This document shows positions 2,806-32,283 of a stretch of DNA of 36,147 nucleotides, in pieces; positions within the stretch are counted from its first letter, which is position 1; each line of letters opens with the position of its first letter. The DNA comes from Bacillota bacterium. GTDB lineage: Bacteria > Bacillota > SHA-98 > UBA4971. A model generated the notes under the pieces. It was given only the letters and a program-made list of their open reading frames with translations, ran no database searches and was not told where the DNA came from. The stretch spans positions 1 to 36,147 of the forward strand of contig DUVA01000235.1 in assembly GCA_012841305.1 (NCBI GenBank), in the 5' to 3' direction. The translations under genes and the position numbers were made by a program.

Positions 2806-2854
2806 ATCAGTTACATCTTTGGGAAATGAGGGCACTTGTTTCGCGGTATGCGCC

Positions 2855-2875
2855 TATTATGGCAAGGCCATAATA
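2855..2875. promoter_or_regulatory. perfect 9-3-9 dyad upstream of the AAA+/VWA pair
   Basis: Arms TATTATGGC and GCCATAATA flank the centre AAG with no mismatch. The dyad lies in the 117-bp gap between the activator gene and the preferred start of the AAA+ gene. It could be an operator or activator site for the neighbouring regulator, or a hairpin in the leader RNA. There is no T-tract, so it is not a normal terminator. Confidence 0.5.
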
Positions 2876-2922
2876 TCAATAGCTGCCCACCGATGCCGCG
2901 TTACACTATGGAGGTGCCCATA

Positions 2923-4344
2923 TTGAAAAGATATCGAGACCTTGTGGTACATGAAGGCAATCAATCATTGGTTGATGCCTTGGAAATGTCTGTCTTATCC
3001 CTCATCGCAGGCAGGCCCATTCACGTTCACGTGGAAGGCCTTCGTGGTACAGGCAAAACAACAGTTGTCCGGGCTATGAAGAGTATCCTTCCTTCGATAG
3101 AGCGAATTGCGGGGTGTGCTTACAACTGCGAACCTACTAATCCCCACTGTCCGATTCACAGGAACATGGAATCCGGAGACCTTTCTGTCTTAGGCACAGA
3201 GTATGTCTCTATTCCGTTTCTTGAGATATCTCATGCTGCGAAACTTGGGACTGTTGTCGGCAGCATAGACCTGGCGAGAGTAGTAGACCCGAATCAGCCT
3301 GAAGTAGCTCTATTACCGGGAGCAATACCCAGGGCATATCGGGGCATTATCTTCGTTGATGAGATAAACAGACTCGCAGATACCTCCCCTGAACTTACCG
3401 ACGTCCTTCTTGATGTCATGGGGACAAAACCCGGGCGCCTCCAGGTAGAAGAGACAGGCCTGCCCACGTTTACGCTGCCTGTCATGTGTTGTGTTTGGGC
3501 TGCCAGTAATCCTGATGAAGAGCCGGGCGCGCTTGAAGATATCAGAAGACAATTATCAGATAGGTTCGATTTTGTGGTAAACATGGGACGACCGCAGAAT
3601 CACGATGCAGTAAAGAGGATTTTGTCCGGCTACACCAAAGAGGAGGAATCTATTTGGCTTCAGCACGAAGGTTCTGTCCCTCAGAAGGCAGATGTATTGC
3701 AGAGGATTTCCTTACCGGATGACTTGTCATCACTTCTGGCGGAGCTGTATGTCGGTTTCGGCATAGAAAGCCTGAGAGCTGTAGAAGCGATTTCTCTCGG
3801 CGCAAGGGCCAGGGCTGCAATGAACCTTAGAACCAAAGTGTTACTTGATGATATCAGGGGAGTGCTGGCTATTACCCTTCGCCATCGTGTTGACGGGGCA
3901 ACACTGATGAATATCAGCAAGTTTCTTGATGAGTACGAATCCAGGCGTGGCCGGAATAGGGATCAAGACAGGACTCCTGATGGTTCAGGAGATAACGTAC
4001 ACGATGGACAAACCTGCGAGCAAGATTCGAGAGATTTGGCAGGAAGCGGTGACACTCCTATGAAGCCTGAATCCCTATGGGACAGGCTTATGAAAGGTAT
4101 GGGACTGATTCGCCCTGATTTATCAAGGAGACATCCCGGTATGCAAGGAACCGGGTTTTCGCCCGGTACAGGCGCGTCGCGAGGCCAAGCAGGGCATGGA
4201 CGGCGGTATGCAGCCGGAGGCGGGACAAGTATAGCAGATCCCAGAGATGTGGACGTGTGCGCGCCGCCTGGCAAGGCTAAATCCCTTTTCCACCTTGCAG
4301 GCGGGGATATTCTGTTTACCGAGGAGGACCTCAGGATACGATGA
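2923..4344 (+). CDS. AAA+ ATPase of the magnesium-chelatase subunit I (ChlI/BchI-like, MoxR-related) type
   Basis: The sequence shows Walker A GLRGTGKT (residues 39-46), a cysteine cluster C65-x3-C69-x6-C76-x2-H79 just after it, and Walker B IIFVDEIN (about 142-149). Sensor-type segments follow, including WAASNPDEEPG and LSDRFDF, as in ChlI/BchI ATPases. The last 120 residues or so are polar and glycine-rich, probably a flexible tail. The frame is open from TTG 2836; TTG 2923 is preferred because GGAGG lies 8 nt upstream, which gives about 473 residues. The stop overlaps the next gene's ATG by 4 bp (ATGA), so the two are translationally coupled. In the family such ATPases remodel or insert metal into a target with a VWA partner. 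No porphyrin-binding H subunit or tetrapyrrole gene is nearby, so the substrate is unknown. Confidence 0.8.
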   Translation: MKRYRDLVVHEGNQSLVDALEMSVLSLIAGRPIHVHVEGLRGTGKTTVVRAMKSILPSIERIAGCAYNCEPTNPHCPIHRNMESGDLSVLGTEYVSIPFLEISHAAKLGTVVGSIDLARVVDPNQPEVALLPGAIPRAYRGIIFVDEINRLADTSPELTDVLLDVMGTKPGRLQVEETGLPTFTLPVMCCVWAASNPDEEPGALEDIRRQLSDRFDFVVNMGRPQNHDAVKRILSGYTKEEESIWLQHEGSVPQKADVLQRISLPDDLSSLLAELYVGFGIESLRAVEAISLGARARAAMNLRTKVLLDDIRGVLAITLRHRVDGATLMNISKFLDEYESRRGRNRDQDRTPDGSGDNVHDGQTCEQDSRDLAGSGDTPMKPESLWDRLMKGMGLIRPDLSRRHPGMQGTGFSPGTGASRGQAGHGRRYAAGGGTSIADPRDVDVCAPPGKAKSLFHLAGGDILFTEEDLRIR

Positions 4345-6113
4345 ATGATTTCCGCCACTTGGCCTTCTTGCGATATGACAGTCACCGCCTGGTCAAGTCT
4401 ATGCTGACTGAGTTTCGGATGGGACGAGGCCTTAGGATTGGTGAGACTACTGTAATCAGCCGGAGAGTGCATGTAATCTATCCACAAGAACCTGAGGAAG
4501 TCAAGATTATCATTAATCAGGATGCAGGGTGTGCCTTCTACTCGAGGCTGAAGAAGAACGAAATATTGCACGTTGATACCTTCCACGAAATCGGTGAGAT
4601 TGATCATAGAAAAATTGCAGAAGCAATTAAACAGGCTGTACATGAGTATTTCCGAAATCCTATGCTCCATCATGGCAGAGGGCTCCTATTCCCTACAGCA
4701 GGAGAACTCCTGGATCTCATTGATATGCAGACAGGGAGCGGCGGGGGTAGAGTCAGCGGCTCTCTGAATTATGGTAGAAAATATTCTTTGAGAAAAGCCC
4801 ACTATAATCATGTGCACCTGGCTGCTATGTTACCTGATAACTGCCTGGCAGTCGTGTTCTATATTGTCAGTGCCATAGAAGAAGAGCTTACGAATCAGGG
4901 AATTGAGATCCGCAAAGTGGAGCGCATATTTCACTTGGAAGGGAAGGGAAAGGCTGACCTTTCTCCGTATTCCAGCATTTTTGACTCACACCTGAATGAG
5001 ACAGGGAGGAGGCCGGCTGACCGAGATTGGAAGTCTCTGAATCAGGAATCCCGTGTGGACGCCGTAGCATCCATGGCAGAAGAGTTCGGCGGAAGGGTCA
5101 ACATGGCAAAACTCCTTGAAAGCCTTACATCGTCAGGTAGTATTCCTCCGGATATTCGCTCAGATGTGGGAGATCTGGATGAGGTTATAGAAAGGCTTAC
5201 CTTCTTGCAACTCATAGGACGCGAGATGGGCAAGTTTGCGCTGACTCCGAAAGGCACGGAAGTACAGAGCATCCTGACTTCATATGCTTCAGAGATTGAA
5301 GCTGCAATCAGGCGACTTATAAGGAAAATGCCGATTGTAAGAAGGTTTCCTCAACATGAAGAAGGCCGGTTCCGCAAGAAAGCCCAGGGAGACGCGCCGA
5401 GAATTGCAAAGACTGCGAGGCGCCTCAGAGAAGGCGAGTGGTGTGACACTATAGCTATTCCGGAGACAGTTGTCACTTCTTTGGTAAGACGCAAGACGCT
5501 GGAGGGCACTCCGCCCGGATTTCTACGTGAAGACATACAGGTTTACCGGCGTCGTCCCCTAAGCCCGCCGGAAATCTGCCTTTTGATAGATGCCAGCGCG
5601 AGTATGGTAGGGAGACGGATTCGAGCTGCAAAGTATCTGATACGCCACTTGACTATGGCGTGTAGGGTAAAAATCAGCGTATTAACGTTTCAAGAGCGCG
5701 ACGTGAAGATCCACATTGCGTCTACCAGATCGAAAAAAGCAATTGAAGAAGGAGTGAAGAGAATCCAACCCCAAGGCCTGACTCCACTTGCGGCAGGTAT
5801 AGCCGATACATTGGAGTTCATCAAGGCAAGAAAACTAAAAGACGTCCTTCTTATCCTGATAACAGACGGTATTCCCACTATGAATCGCTGGACTGCGGAT
5901 CCTGCAAGAGACGCTCTCACAGCTGCAAAATCCATAGCTGACAAAAAGATCACGTTCATGTGCGTAGGCCTTCAGCCGAACCGCGACTTTCTTTCTCGCC
6001 TCGTCGACGTGGCTCATGGTAAACTCTATATAGTGGACGAATTTGACAAGGATATTCTAGTGAACCTGGTAAGAGCCGGAAGACGAGAAAGCGCCAAGGG
6101 CGGTCATCGCTGA
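4341..6113 (+). CDS. VWA-domain protein, partner of the upstream AAA+ ATPase (ChlD-like C-terminus)
   Basis: The protein has 590 residues. The C-terminal third is a von Willebrand A domain with a complete MIDAS: DASAS (417-421), T481 in GLTPLA, and D509 in ITDG. The N-terminal 400 residues have no AAA module, unlike true ChlD, and are not recognised. They include a segment resembling a winged helix (about 290-325: FLQLIGREMGKFALTPKG). The gene starts inside the stop of the AAA+ gene (ATGA), a strong sign of equimolar production and a physical complex. By family analogy the VWA protein links the ATPase to its client through a metal-bridged contact. Cytoplasmic location is inferred from the lack of signal or membrane segments. 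The client is unknown. Confidence 0.75.
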   Translation: MNDFRHLAFLRYDSHRLVKSMLTEFRMGRGLRIGETTVISRRVHVIYPQEPEEVKIIINQDAGCAFYSRLKKNEILHVDTFHEIGEIDHRKIAEAIKQAVHEYFRNPMLHHGRGLLFPTAGELLDLIDMQTGSGGGRVSGSLNYGRKYSLRKAHYNHVHLAAMLPDNCLAVVFYIVSAIEEELTNQGIEIRKVERIFHLEGKGKADLSPYSSIFDSHLNETGRRPADRDWKSLNQESRVDAVASMAEEFGGRVNMAKLLESLTSSGSIPPDIRSDVGDLDEVIERLTFLQLIGREMGKFALTPKGTEVQSILTSYASEIEAAIRRLIRKMPIVRRFPQHEEGRFRKKAQGDAPRIAKTARRLREGEWCDTIAIPETVVTSLVRRKTLEGTPPGFLREDIQVYRRRPLSPPEICLLIDASASMVGRRIRAAKYLIRHLTMACRVKISVLTFQERDVKIHIASTRSKKAIEEGVKRIQPQGLTPLAAGIADTLEFIKARKLKDVLLILITDGIPTMNRWTADPARDALTAAKSIADKKITFMCVGLQPNRDFLSRLVDVAHGKLYIVDEFDKDILVNLVRAGRRESAKGGHR

Positions 6114-16509: not shown

Positions 16510-16717
16510 AGCGAAGAAGACACAAAAAGGACCCTACCGTGTGCGATTTGACATCGGTAACTTTTGTTCCAACACCATTTGAAAGGGGCCTCAGCTCCGA
16601 GTGCAGCGCGAGTGCCGCCGGCGTGCGGAGTCGTAAAACACTCGGGAGGGCACCCACCTGCAGGGCGCAGGGATAGAAATGTTACCGGCCAAGCGGCATG
16701 GTGGGGTCACGTTTTTT
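16510..16717 (+). ncRNA. ssrS: 6S RNA (SsrS-like regulator of RNA polymerase)
   Basis: A GC-rich, non-coding stretch of about 200 nt folds as one long interrupted rod. The closing stem is GACCCTACC (16530-16538) with GGTGGGGTC (16700-16708), 9 pairs including one G-U. Next is CGGTAAC (16555-16561) with GTTACCG (16681-16687), then a wide internal region, then CTCCGAGTG (16595-16603) with CACTCGGGAG (16639-16648) under a GC-rich apical part. A six-T tract (16712-16717) follows the closing stem and would end transcription. Rod shape, size, own promoter and the position between aspS and rarA match 6S-1 RNA of Bacillus. 6S RNA binds sigma-A holoenzyme as an open-promoter mimic. The identification rests on fold and synteny, not on a covariance-model search. 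Confidence 0.7.
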
Positions 16718-23849: not shown

Positions 23850-25622
23850 GTGCAAGAAGGTTTAGGCGTACGTGCATTTACCACACGTGAACTCAGAGAC
23901 ATGTTCAGAGACTTCTTTGTCAGCAAGGATCATGTTCCTCTCCCGTCTGCTTCTTTGGTTCCCAGAAATGACCCAACGCTTTTGCTCACAGGGGCAGGTA
24001 TGGTTCCTTTCAAGCCGTACTATATCGGTACTGCTAAGCCCGAATACCTTCGTGCGACTACCTGTCAGAAATGCATAAGGACATTGGATATTGAAAATGT
24101 GGGTATGACCTCGCGACACCTCACATGCTTTGAAATGCTCGGGAACTTCTCTTTCGGAGACTATTTCAAGAAAGACGCGATTATCTGGGCGTGGGAGTTT
24201 GTCACAACTCATTTGGGCTTGCCTGAAGATAAGTTGTGGATCACCATATACCTTGATGATGACGAGGCTTTTGATATCTGGAACAGAATAATCGGAGTTC
24301 CATCTGAGCGCATAGTACGGTTGGGAAAACCGGACAACTTCTGGGAGATCGGAGTCGGTCCTTGTGGGCCATGCTCAGAAATTCATGTAGACCGCGGAGA
24401 ATCTTTCGGATGCGGACAACCTGACTGCAGAGTCGGTTGCGATTGTGACAGGTTTATGGAAATCTGGAACCTTGTCTTTATTCAATTCTACTGTAATGAA
24501 AAAGGAGAATACAAGCTCCTTGAGAGAAAAGGGATCGATACAGGGATGGGCCTCGAACGGGTTGCGGCAGTTATGCAAGGCGCGTCTACCGTGTTTGACA
24601 CTGATGCTTTCCGACCCGTCACACAAGCGATTCTGGACGCTGCCGGACTCAGAGGAGACCCGAACCCTAAACAGATGACGTCCCTGAGAATAGTAGCTGA
24701 CCATGCTCGTGCTGTCACGTTTCTCATAGCTGACGGTGTTCTCCCTGCCAATGAGGGCAGAGGATATGTGTTGCGTAGATTGATTCGCAGAGCAGTTCGC
24801 CATGGAAAACTCCTTGGAATTCAGAAGCCGTTCATGGTCGACATGGCTGATGTGGTCTCATCAGTGTTTTCTCATACCTATCCTGAGCTTGTCATGAGAA
24901 AGGATCATATTCATAAGGTCATAGGGTCTGAAGAACAACGGTTCTTAGAACGCCTCGATCAAGGCACGACGATGCTCCAAGACATCGTTATGGAGCTGGA
25001 GAACAAAGGGTCATTGACAGTCCCAGGATCCTGGGCGTTTAAGCTTTATGATACTTACGGATTCCCGCTTGAGCTAACAAGGGAAATTGCAGGGGAAAGC
25101 GGGATGACCGTGGACGAAGAAGGCTTTCTGGAAGCCATGGAAGAACAAAGGGAGCGTGCCAGAGCTTCCAGGCATGCCCTGGGGTATATGGGCGGCCTGT
25201 CTACTGCAAAAGCAGAAGCCCTGTCCGGTCTTGACGTTGAGTTTATCGGATATGATACTTTGACCGGCGAGTCCAAGATAACCGCCATATTTGCTGAAGG
25301 TGAACCTGTAGGGCACATATCGTCAGGCCAAGACGGGGAGGTCGTCCTTGATAGAACTCCGTTCTATGCTGAAGCCGGGGGACAAGTCGGTGATTCCGGA
25401 GATATCGTCGGAGAAGGCTTTCGTGCAAGAGTCAACAATACGGTCAGGCTTTCCGATTCTGTAATTGCACATAACGTTACAGTCGTTGAAGGAGATCTCA
25501 GCGTAGGAGATGTAGCCAACGCAAGAGTGGATGAGGGCATGAGGAGTTCTACAGCCAGGAACCATACAGCTACCCACCTGCTCCAGGCAGCGCTTAGGGC
25601 AGTCCTCGGTGACCATGTCTAG
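23850..25622 (+). CDS. alaS: alanyl-tRNA synthetase, N-terminal part (ends at in-frame TAG)
   Basis: This part holds the class II aminoacylation core (FTTRELRDMFRDFF, PLLLTGAGMVPFKPYYIG region, NVGMTSRHLTCFEMLGNFSFGDYFKK), the tRNA-recognition domain and the first half of the editing domain. The editing motif HxxxH is at H572-H576 (HTATH). The frame stops at TAG 25620-25622 (codon 591) in the conserved segment GDHV-stop-QAGS, where homologues usually have Lys, Asn or Ser. The same frame continues immediately with normal AlaS sequence. GTG 23850 is preceded by GGGAGG at 9 nt. Aminoacylation could survive in a 590-residue fragment, but editing would not. Confidence 0.92.
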   Translation: MQEGLGVRAFTTRELRDMFRDFFVSKDHVPLPSASLVPRNDPTLLLTGAGMVPFKPYYIGTAKPEYLRATTCQKCIRTLDIENVGMTSRHLTCFEMLGNFSFGDYFKKDAIIWAWEFVTTHLGLPEDKLWITIYLDDDEAFDIWNRIIGVPSERIVRLGKPDNFWEIGVGPCGPCSEIHVDRGESFGCGQPDCRVGCDCDRFMEIWNLVFIQFYCNEKGEYKLLERKGIDTGMGLERVAAVMQGASTVFDTDAFRPVTQAILDAAGLRGDPNPKQMTSLRIVADHARAVTFLIADGVLPANEGRGYVLRRLIRRAVRHGKLLGIQKPFMVDMADVVSSVFSHTYPELVMRKDHIHKVIGSEEQRFLERLDQGTTMLQDIVMELENKGSLTVPGSWAFKLYDTYGFPLELTREIAGESGMTVDEEGFLEAMEEQRERARASRHALGYMGGLSTAKAEALSGLDVEFIGYDTLTGESKITAIFAEGEPVGHISSGQDGEVVLDRTPFYAEAGGQVGDSGDIVGEGFRARVNNTVRLSDSVIAHNVTVVEGDLSVGDVANARVDEGMRSSTARNHTATHLLQAALRAVLGDHV

Positions 25623-25637
25623 CAGGCAGGTTCATAT

Positions 25638-26525
25638 GTGTCAGGTGACAGACTGAGGTTTGACTTCTCACACCCTTCACCTGTAAGTGACAGTGAACTG
25701 CGCAAGGTAGAAGACATGGTTACAAAGTGGATTCTTGATAATTTCCGTGTTAAAGCTGAAGTAATGCCAATCGCAGAAGCGGAGGAAATTGGCGCGATAG
25801 CCTTATTCGGAGAGAAGTACGGCAACGATGTAAGAGTAGTCCGGATCGGTGATGTCAGCGCTGAGTTTTGCGGTGGCACACACATAGATCGTACAGGACA
25901 AATCGGTCTTTTGAAGATTATCTCAGAAAGCCCGGTTGCAGCAGGTATTCGCCGTATTGAAGCTGTGAGTGGCTACTCTGTGCTCGATTACATGAGGTCT
26001 AATCAAGAGATACTTGACAATACCGCCAAGGCACTCAAGTGCCTTCCTGAGGAGATTCCGGACAGAGTACTAAAGCTGCAACGAGACGCGAAGGATCTGG
26101 AGAAGGAGCTTGAAAGCCTGACAATAAAAGCAGCTCTGCCCAAAGTCCGTCATCTGATTGATCAGGCTGTCGAAGTCAATGGCGCCAAAGTAGTGGTGGA
26201 CGCAGTGGACGGCCTGGACGGACATGCCATTCGAGAGCTTGCTGACAGGATCAGGGATGAAATACGCCGAGGCGTGGTGGTATTGGGCTCTCGTGTCGAT
26301 GAGAGAGTTCTGTTTGTGGCTGTGGTCACGAAGGATTTGATCGAACGAGGGATCCGTGCAGGAGATATTGTGAGGGTTGCCGCAACGATTACCGGCGGGG
26401 GAGGCGGGGGAAGGCCTGATATGGCACAAGCAGGAGGGAAAGATGTATCAAGGCTGGATGAAGCCCTCGGGAAAACCAGGTCTTTCATAGAGAGCCGGCT
26501 GGCATTAGATAAAGAGGATCGCTAG
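25638..26525 (+). CDS. alaS: alanyl-tRNA synthetase, C-terminal part (editing half and C-Ala domain)
   Basis: This is the direct continuation of the AlaS frame after the TAG. It carries the second half of the editing-site zinc motif, CGGTH (C674-H678 in full-length numbering), the FDFSHPSPVSDSELRKVED segment, RIEAVSG, a coiled-coil linker and the glycine-rich C-Ala (DHHA1-like) domain with GGGGGGRPDMAQAGG. The first in-frame start is GTG 25638, 15 nt after the stop, with an AGG 7 nt upstream, so reinitiation is conceivable. Read as one gene, 23850-26525 gives about 891 codons, close to the usual AlaRS length. The part itself ends in TAG. Whether it is made by readthrough, reinitiation or not at all cannot be told from sequence. 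Confidence 0.85.
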   Translation: MSGDRLRFDFSHPSPVSDSELRKVEDMVTKWILDNFRVKAEVMPIAEAEEIGAIALFGEKYGNDVRVVRIGDVSAEFCGGTHIDRTGQIGLLKIISESPVAAGIRRIEAVSGYSVLDYMRSNQEILDNTAKALKCLPEEIPDRVLKLQRDAKDLEKELESLTIKAALPKVRHLIDQAVEVNGAKVVVDAVDGLDGHAIRELADRIRDEIRRGVVVLGSRVDERVLFVAVVTKDLIERGIRAGDIVRVAATITGGGGGGRPDMAQAGGKDVSRLDEALGKTRSFIESRLALDKEDR

Positions 26526-31463: not shown

Positions 31464-31578
31464 AGTCATTAGTACGCAGTCCGCATATCATCGAAAAACA
31501 ACCCCAACGGAACATGCACTTTTCCCTGAGTAGATCATATCTATACTAATGAATCTTTTTACGGGGGTGGCTGATTTT

Positions 31579-32283
31579 ATGCTGGATCTCTTGATAGGTT
31601 CGGCTCTGCTTCTTCGTGGGCTGTGGCACCTCATATCCTACGTTTCGTCTGGAAATGTATTTCCACCCCCTCTGTCTGAGGAGGAAGAGGCCAAGGTCCT
31701 GATGGAAAAGGAACAAGGAAGCGAAGAGGCCAGGAAAACCTTGATTGAACGGAATCTCAGGTTGGTTGCACACATAGTTAAGAAATTTGACGGAGCTTTG
31801 GAAGATCAAAACGATTTGATCTCCATAGGCACTATAGGCCTGATAAAAGCGGTGGACACGTATAATCAACACCGTAAAACCAGATTAGCTACATATGCTG
31901 CCCGGTGTATAGAAAATGAGATCCTCATGCACCTTAGAGCGACAAGAAGAAACCGGGCAGAGCTTCTTCTGCATGACCCTATCGGATCGGATAAGGAAGG
32001 AAACGAAATCACCCTCATCGATGTGTTGGGAAGTGAAGCTGACGAAGTGGCGCTTGCAGTGGAAGGAAGACTGGAAGAGAAGAAGCTGGCGGAAAAGGTA
32101 GATACGCTGACTTGCCGTGAAAAGAAGGTCATTGAAATGCGGTACGGACTCAAAGACGGTATACGCAGGACTCAACGAGAAATCTCCAGGTATCTGGGAA
32201 TCTCCCGTTCGTACGTCTCAAGGATTGAAAAACGTGCGCTGATGAAACTTCAAAAGGAAATGGTAGCCAACGGGTACCATTGA
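31579..32283 (+). CDS. sigK: sporulation sigma factor, pro-sigma-K type
   Basis: The mature part matches sigma-K closely: FPPPLSEEEE, LIERNLRLVAHIVKKF, LISIGTIGLIKAVDTY, ATYAARCIENEILMHLRA, HDPIGSDKEGNEI, and the region 4 helix-turn-helix TQREISRYLGISRSYVSRIEKRALMKL. A hydrophobic N-terminal pro-sequence (LLIGSALLLRGLWHLISYV) implies activation by membrane proteolysis (SpoIVFB-type). The gene is uninterrupted, so no skin-like element splits it here. ATG 31579 is favoured because ACGGGGGTGG lies 10 nt upstream; ATG 31549 is also in frame. A SigE/SigK-like -10 (CATATCTATA, 31536-31545) is suggested just before it. It implies an endospore former. Confidence 0.88.
   Translation: MLDLLIGSALLLRGLWHLISYVSSGNVFPPPLSEEEEAKVLMEKEQGSEEARKTLIERNLRLVAHIVKKFDGALEDQNDLISIGTIGLIKAVDTYNQHRKTRLATYAARCIENEILMHLRATRRNRAELLLHDPIGSDKEGNEITLIDVLGSEADEVALAVEGRLEEKKLAEKVDTLTCREKKVIEMRYGLKDGIRRTQREISRYLGISRSYVSRIEKRALMKLQKEMVANGYH

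Follow-up and report, generated by a model that had tools for sequence, protein, structure and literature searches.

A pair of coupled genes, encoding a ChlI-clade AAA+ ATPase and a VWA protein, was analyzed in a 36,147-nucleotide stretch of DNA (here termed the window) from a Bacillota bacterium. Among the genomes sampled, this pair is common in spore-formers and rarely found outside them; it is preceded by a likely forespore-type promoter. On balance, we consider it slightly more probable than its negation that the pair forms a sporulation-associated, forespore-expressed AAA+/VWA machine for protein remodelling or metal insertion. Reading of the pair as a machine is based on sequence: the ATPase core and the MIDAS are both intact, pairing is strict, the ATPase forms a separate clade and there is no H subunit. 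The basis for the sporulation link is statistical and consists of the distribution among spore-formers and the promoter-like site. No description of the pair was found among open-licence papers. The features of the locus were as follows.

2846 to 2875, forward strand: putative SigF/SigG (forespore) promoter, GTATG (2846 to 2850), N18, CATAATA (2869 to 2875), from conservation in the class and consensus enrichment
2910 to 2916, forward strand: Shine-Dalgarno sequence, GGAGGTG in the window, with GAGGTG kept in 7/7 congeners
2923 to 4344, forward strand: ChlI-clade AAA+ ATPase gene, 473 amino acids, TTG start, from profile search, PDB search and tree
3037 to 3060, forward strand: Walker A, GLRGTGKT, read from the sequence and conserved in 69 relatives
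3115 to 3159, forward strand: C-x3-C-x6-C-x2-H cluster in the region after Walker A, present in 69/69 pair ATPases
3346 to 3363, forward strand: Walker B, IIFVDE (in GIIFVDE), read from the sequence and invariant in congeners
4341 to 6113, forward strand: VWA protein gene, 590 amino acids, from the open reading frame, Pfam and pairing
4341 to 5030, forward strand: N-terminal domain with no fold match, from a 34-sequence alignment
5058 to 5315, forward strand: probable winged-helix domain, residues ~240 to 325, from HTH_45 and Sso10a matches
5553 to 6095, forward strand: VWA domain with complete MIDAS (D417-x-S-x-S, T481, D509), PF13519 at 38.7 bits (cut-off 27)
31549 to 32283, forward strand: sigK, a sporulation sigma factor (context), TIGR02846 at 328.8 bits (cut-off 298.65)

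The source genome is 2.48 Mb in 278 contigs and is 89% complete; its near relatives are Bacillota MAGs. The TTG start codon of the ATPase gene was conserved in 7/7 congeners, while the codon aligned with an alternative ATG at 2908 was CAG in one of them. A sequence-only reading of this DNA had proposed that the ATPase gene was coupled by an ATGA to a gene for a 590-residue VWA protein, and this overlap was confirmed at 4341 to 4344. Identity among congeners was 78 to 93% for the VWA frame (n = 6) and 69 to 92% for the AAA frame (n = 5 aligned). The full-length VWA protein, including its N-terminal region, recurred across the phylum, indicating that the pair is not due to chance. Elsewhere in the window, an in-frame TAG (25620 to 25622) splits alaS into open reading frames at 23850 to 25622 and 25638 to 26525; this gene was uninterrupted in the five class relatives with a match, indicative of either an error in the MAG sequence or a real lesion. 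A 6S RNA was detected at 16528 to 16711 (66.2 bits; gathering score, 46.4), between aspS and the gene for an MgsA-type ATPase.

All of the motifs ascribed to the ATPase by the sequence-only reading, a ChlI-like protein with a C-x3-C-x6-C-x2-H cluster after Walker A, were found. The lid matched PF17863, and the ATPase core is intact and active-looking. The best match in the PDB was ChlI (2e-23). Scores against the NCBIfam models for cobaltochelatase (Cob-chelat-sub, TIGR02442) and BchI-ChlI (TIGR02030) were 142.3 and 108.8 bits, relative to equivalog cut-offs of 779.45 and 466.95, respectively. In a tree, 24 pair ATPases were located opposite 22 chelatase I and D domains across a branch with 100/100 support, which places the pair ATPases in their own clade, apart from the CobN-linked chelatase subunits. 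A score of 21.6 bits was obtained with the MoxR-type AAA_3 model (cut-off, 27), and neither CbbQ nor RavA was represented in the profile matches; these AAA model matches set the protein apart from MoxR proper, RavA, CbbQ and NorQ. Profile and PDB matches, together with location of the AAA gene immediately upstream of the VWA gene at 72/77 loci, assign the protein to the helix-2-insert (MoxR/chelatase) AAA+ ATPases that are coupled to a VWA partner. The motor is descended from that of the metal chelatases.

The cysteine cluster is not a new motif. In genomes with CobN, the AAA domains of the chelatase I and D subunits had a C-x3-C-x8(9)-C-x2-C cluster at the same position in 22/22 cases, indicating that an equivalent cluster is a feature of the chelatase branch. 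The cluster of the pair is a homologous variant in which the last Cys is replaced by His and the loop is shorter. Solved ChlI proteins contain the cluster region without a complete set of cysteines.

Pfam searches of the VWA protein detected only VWA domains (residues ~401 to 570), with PF00092 also exceeding its cut-off. The MIDAS residues (DxSxS, T, D) were invariant in 34 diverse members. No AAA domain was detected in this protein by Pfam or profile search; the AAA half of ChlD is, as had been proposed, lacking, and the protein does not have the ChlD architecture of an N-terminal AAA half, an acidic linker and a C-terminal VWA domain. The alignment of the 34 sequences, with a mean column identity of 26%, contained a series of invariant or nearly invariant residues in the N-terminal region (H44, D61-A62-G63, H77-x-D79-x-F81-H82, H157-V-H159 and E180; 32 to 34 sequences). 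Conserved His and Asp residues of this kind could form a metal or catalytic site.

The sequence-only reading had described 400 unrecognised residues at the N-terminus of the VWA protein. No known family covers these residues, and residues 1 to 230 had no match to any family or solved structure in family and PDB searches, so that the homology to a defined family that would have spoken against that reading was not encountered; the description was too broad for residues ~240 to 325, where a winged helix is weakly supported. HTH_45 was matched in 14/34 members (best value, 9e-5) and Sso10a was matched at 7e-4 over profile positions 240 to 324. A winged helix (window positions 5058 to 5315) within a VWA co-chaperone would be an unusual combination of domains. 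AlphaFold2 models generated with seven close sequences had pLDDT values of 34 for the whole VWA protein and 38 for the N-terminus and were not used for fold searches. A weak lead to a fold was obtained from the AdoMet decarboxylase SpeD, which was selected for comparison after a sub-threshold Pfam match (E value of 0.075 in 2/32 members). The resemblance to N-terminal residues ~29 to 101 was colinear and, with an hhalign P value of 0.025 as the lowest of 32 comparisons, was not significant. The E-S-H at which SpeD is auto-cleaved was not conserved (a D-A-G is present nearby); hence, the protein is not a decarboxylase.

The VWA gene of the pair was detected in 17/17 genomes of the class and in 117/398 sampled genomes of the phylum (29%). 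Three of the five exceptions to pairing were at contig ends; in the other two (L093 and L096, both of family f134), a VWA gene was present but the surrounding region retrieved contained no ATPase gene. Four loci of another family (f13) had two or three tandem VWA genes behind one ATPase gene; these are possibly alternative adaptors for one motor. In the largest neighbourhood group the pair was located between secDF and recJ-(apt)-relA-dtd, while other groups had gerM-murI-rph, rapZ-yvcK-whiA, coaX-dus-birA-nadBC or mnmG, several of these names having been assigned from sequence by eye. No neighbour was constant across the groups and, hence, genomic context does not indicate a client; neighbouring genes were rejected as clients as the groups adjoin different housekeeping genes. 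A gene from a protein cluster with a GerMN domain (PF10646, sporulation/germination) followed the VWA gene at seven loci, the assignment having been tested at one of these. The pair is immediately preceded in the window by a gene (1243 to 2805) for a PAS/sigma-54 activator, which is PrdR-like but below the equivalog cut-off and was found at this position in the genus and most of the sister genus.

SpoIIR was present in 114/117 genomes with the pair and 218/281 genomes without it (odds ratio, 11; P = 9e-8, kinship ignored), and Spo0A was present in 115/117 genomes with the pair (intersection determined by hand). The marker exceptions (G179, G249 and G290) were MAGs below full completeness whose relatives carry the marker. 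The window itself contains sigK, and genes for SASPs and SpoIIR are present in the genome. As 218 genomes with SpoIIR lacked the pair, its contribution to sporulation can be accessory at most.

The promoter-like site, GTATG-N18-CATAATA, was invariant in the 13 class genomes, from three genera, that exhibited it; a variant, GAATG-N18-CATACTA, was found in family f3. The B. subtilis SigG consensus is GYATR-N17/18-CATNHTA. The window site matches this consensus exactly. The exact GYATR-N18-CATNHTA pattern had seven matches in the 2.48-Mb genome, including the window site. Selected clostridial sporulation promoters have been reported to fit the B. subtilis consensus well (PMC3789829).

Enrichment of sites upstream of the ATPase gene was determined relative to dinucleotide shuffles for 34 de-replicated groups. 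The combined Z was 5.8 for the SigF consensus (5.0 outside the class) and 4.1 for the SigG consensus (1.6 outside the class), values to be read in light of the relatedness of the sequences and of the choice of consensus after the class motif had been seen. No enrichment was observed in these groups for SigA (Z of −1.3), SigE, SigK or SigH sites. Consensus scores of at least 14/15 were obtained for 24/68 ATPase upstream regions and 2 to 3 of 387 control upstream regions. With 20 fresh genomes the SigF Z was 2.5, weaker than in the first set. SASP genes are standard targets of SigG, and those of the class mostly carried [GA]CATA-N17-nAnACTA. A matrix trained on the SASP promoters of the class ranked the out-of-class ATPase upstream regions above the 387 controls (P = 5e-8, uncorrected for relatedness) and gave the window site 6.9 bits, below the 90th percentile of the controls (8.1). 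SpoIIR promoters were uninformative as a yardstick for SigF because spoIIR of the class is located directly behind a sporulation sigma gene. In lineages with the pair before gerM, no such promoter was evident. An inverted repeat over the −10 element (TTATGGC-AAG-GCCATAA) was rejected as a conserved element since its left arm decays in two relatives (L006 and L008) that keep the promoter boxes. These data are consistent with a predicted promoter of the forespore type, dependent on SigF or SigG, likely being present upstream of the ATPase gene.

The sequence-only reading had proposed a metal-insertion or remodelling machine; this is still the best class of explanation, while the cysteine cluster that it noted is not special to the pair. 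It had overlooked the most informative features, namely, the near-restriction to spore-formers and the forespore-type promoter-like site. Other AAA+/VWA pairs to which this one is related act in protein remodelling or metal insertion (PMC7159879, PMC13036017), and in NorQD the motor remodels the linker of the VWA protein, allowing insertion of metal into the client (PMC13036017). We propose that the pair would constitute a two-gene operon of endospore-forming Bacillota, the products of which, an AAA+ motor derived from ChlI and a VWA protein serving as its dedicated co-chaperone, are presumably made in the forespore. By analogy with NorQ and NorD, a hexamer of the ATPase would dock on the VWA protein in a MIDAS-dependent manner and thereby pull or twist it. 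Force could then pass through a linker at residues ~330 to 400 to the His/Asp domain and the winged helix, which may hold a client for remodelling or metal loading during spore development. A narrower version, in which the new His/Asp-rich N-terminal domain of the VWA adaptor binds a metal and the domain then either places this metal in a spore-specific client or unfolds that client, as part of an undescribed forespore machine, is only tentatively put forward and is probably incorrect in at least one part.

A less likely alternative is that the pair functions in vegetative cells in the maturation of a metalloenzyme of redox or anaerobic metabolism, in the manner of MoxR or NorQD, with the distribution among spore-formers reflecting shared ancestry. 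The closest functional analogues work in this way (PMC13036017, PMC7159879), and the commonest neighbours (secDF, recJ, apt, relA and dtd) are housekeeping genes. However, no metalloenzyme gene was consistently linked in the neighbourhood groups, enrichment was confined to SigF/SigG rather than SigA types of site, and nearly all carriers have SpoIIR. Action on DNA-bound or nucleoid proteins during forespore chromosome remodelling, with targeting by the winged helix, is improbable. The probable winged helix and the forespore-type site would both fit such a role, but support for the former is weak and the binding partner of many such domains is protein rather than DNA; furthermore, no DNA-related gene was consistently linked, adjacency to recJ being a property of one lineage group.

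The nearness of the ATPase to ChlI and cobaltochelatase subunits in profile and PDB searches could indicate a true tetrapyrrole metal chelatase with CobN/ChlH encoded elsewhere. The sequence-only reading had noted the lack of an H-subunit gene nearby, and in fact no CobN/ChlH gene (PF02514) was found in the window or in the 89%-complete genome. PF02514 was also not found in 15/16 class genomes searched; the exception, G016, encodes its own distinct chelatase I and D genes besides the pair, and other genomes with CobN likewise have separate chelatase I and D genes. Over the 398 phylum genomes, the pair and CobN were independent (13 genomes with both; odds ratio, 0.94; P = 1), contrary to any consistent pairing at a distance. 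Together with the distinct clade of the pair ATPases, these results largely refute the chelatase reading, for which we retain very little credence; the pair is not a chelatase. MoxR-VWA cores are also found in ternary systems of defence or conflict (PMC7159879), but a system of this type is similarly improbable given that there was no PADLOC match, no effector genes were seen, no relative was found in viral contigs and conservation was vertical (17/17 class genomes).

The usual route to assigning an AAA+/VWA pair is the operon in which its client is encoded, and the common pair described here has no linked client; annotation of the pair as chelatase-like is misleading. A forespore role predicts control by SigF or SigG and, if true, would mean that spore development involves a further motor in lineages for which B. 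subtilis may not be representative.

The nearest known systems are the I and D subunits of cobaltochelatase and Mg-chelatase (TIGR02442, ChlI/BchI and ChlD), which resemble the pair in AAA+ clade, cysteine cluster and a VWA partner with a MIDAS. The pair differs from these in scoring below all equivalog cut-offs, in forming a separate clade across the 100/100 branch, in having His for the last Cys, in a VWA protein with a different N-terminus and no AAA half, and in lacking an H subunit. NorQ/NorD, MoxR/VWA and RavA/ViaA share with the pair an AAA+ motor and a VWA protein that are encoded together and the logic of metal insertion or remodelling, whereas profile and PDB searches place the ATPase of the pair in the ChlI branch, the N-terminal domain of its VWA protein matches no known family, and the pair is linked statistically to sporulation rather than to a metabolic operon. 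CoxE-like VWA proteins (PF05762) exhibited a weak likeness to the VWA domain in 29/34 members, with the window protein scoring 21.0 against a cut-off of 26.4 and having a different N-terminus.
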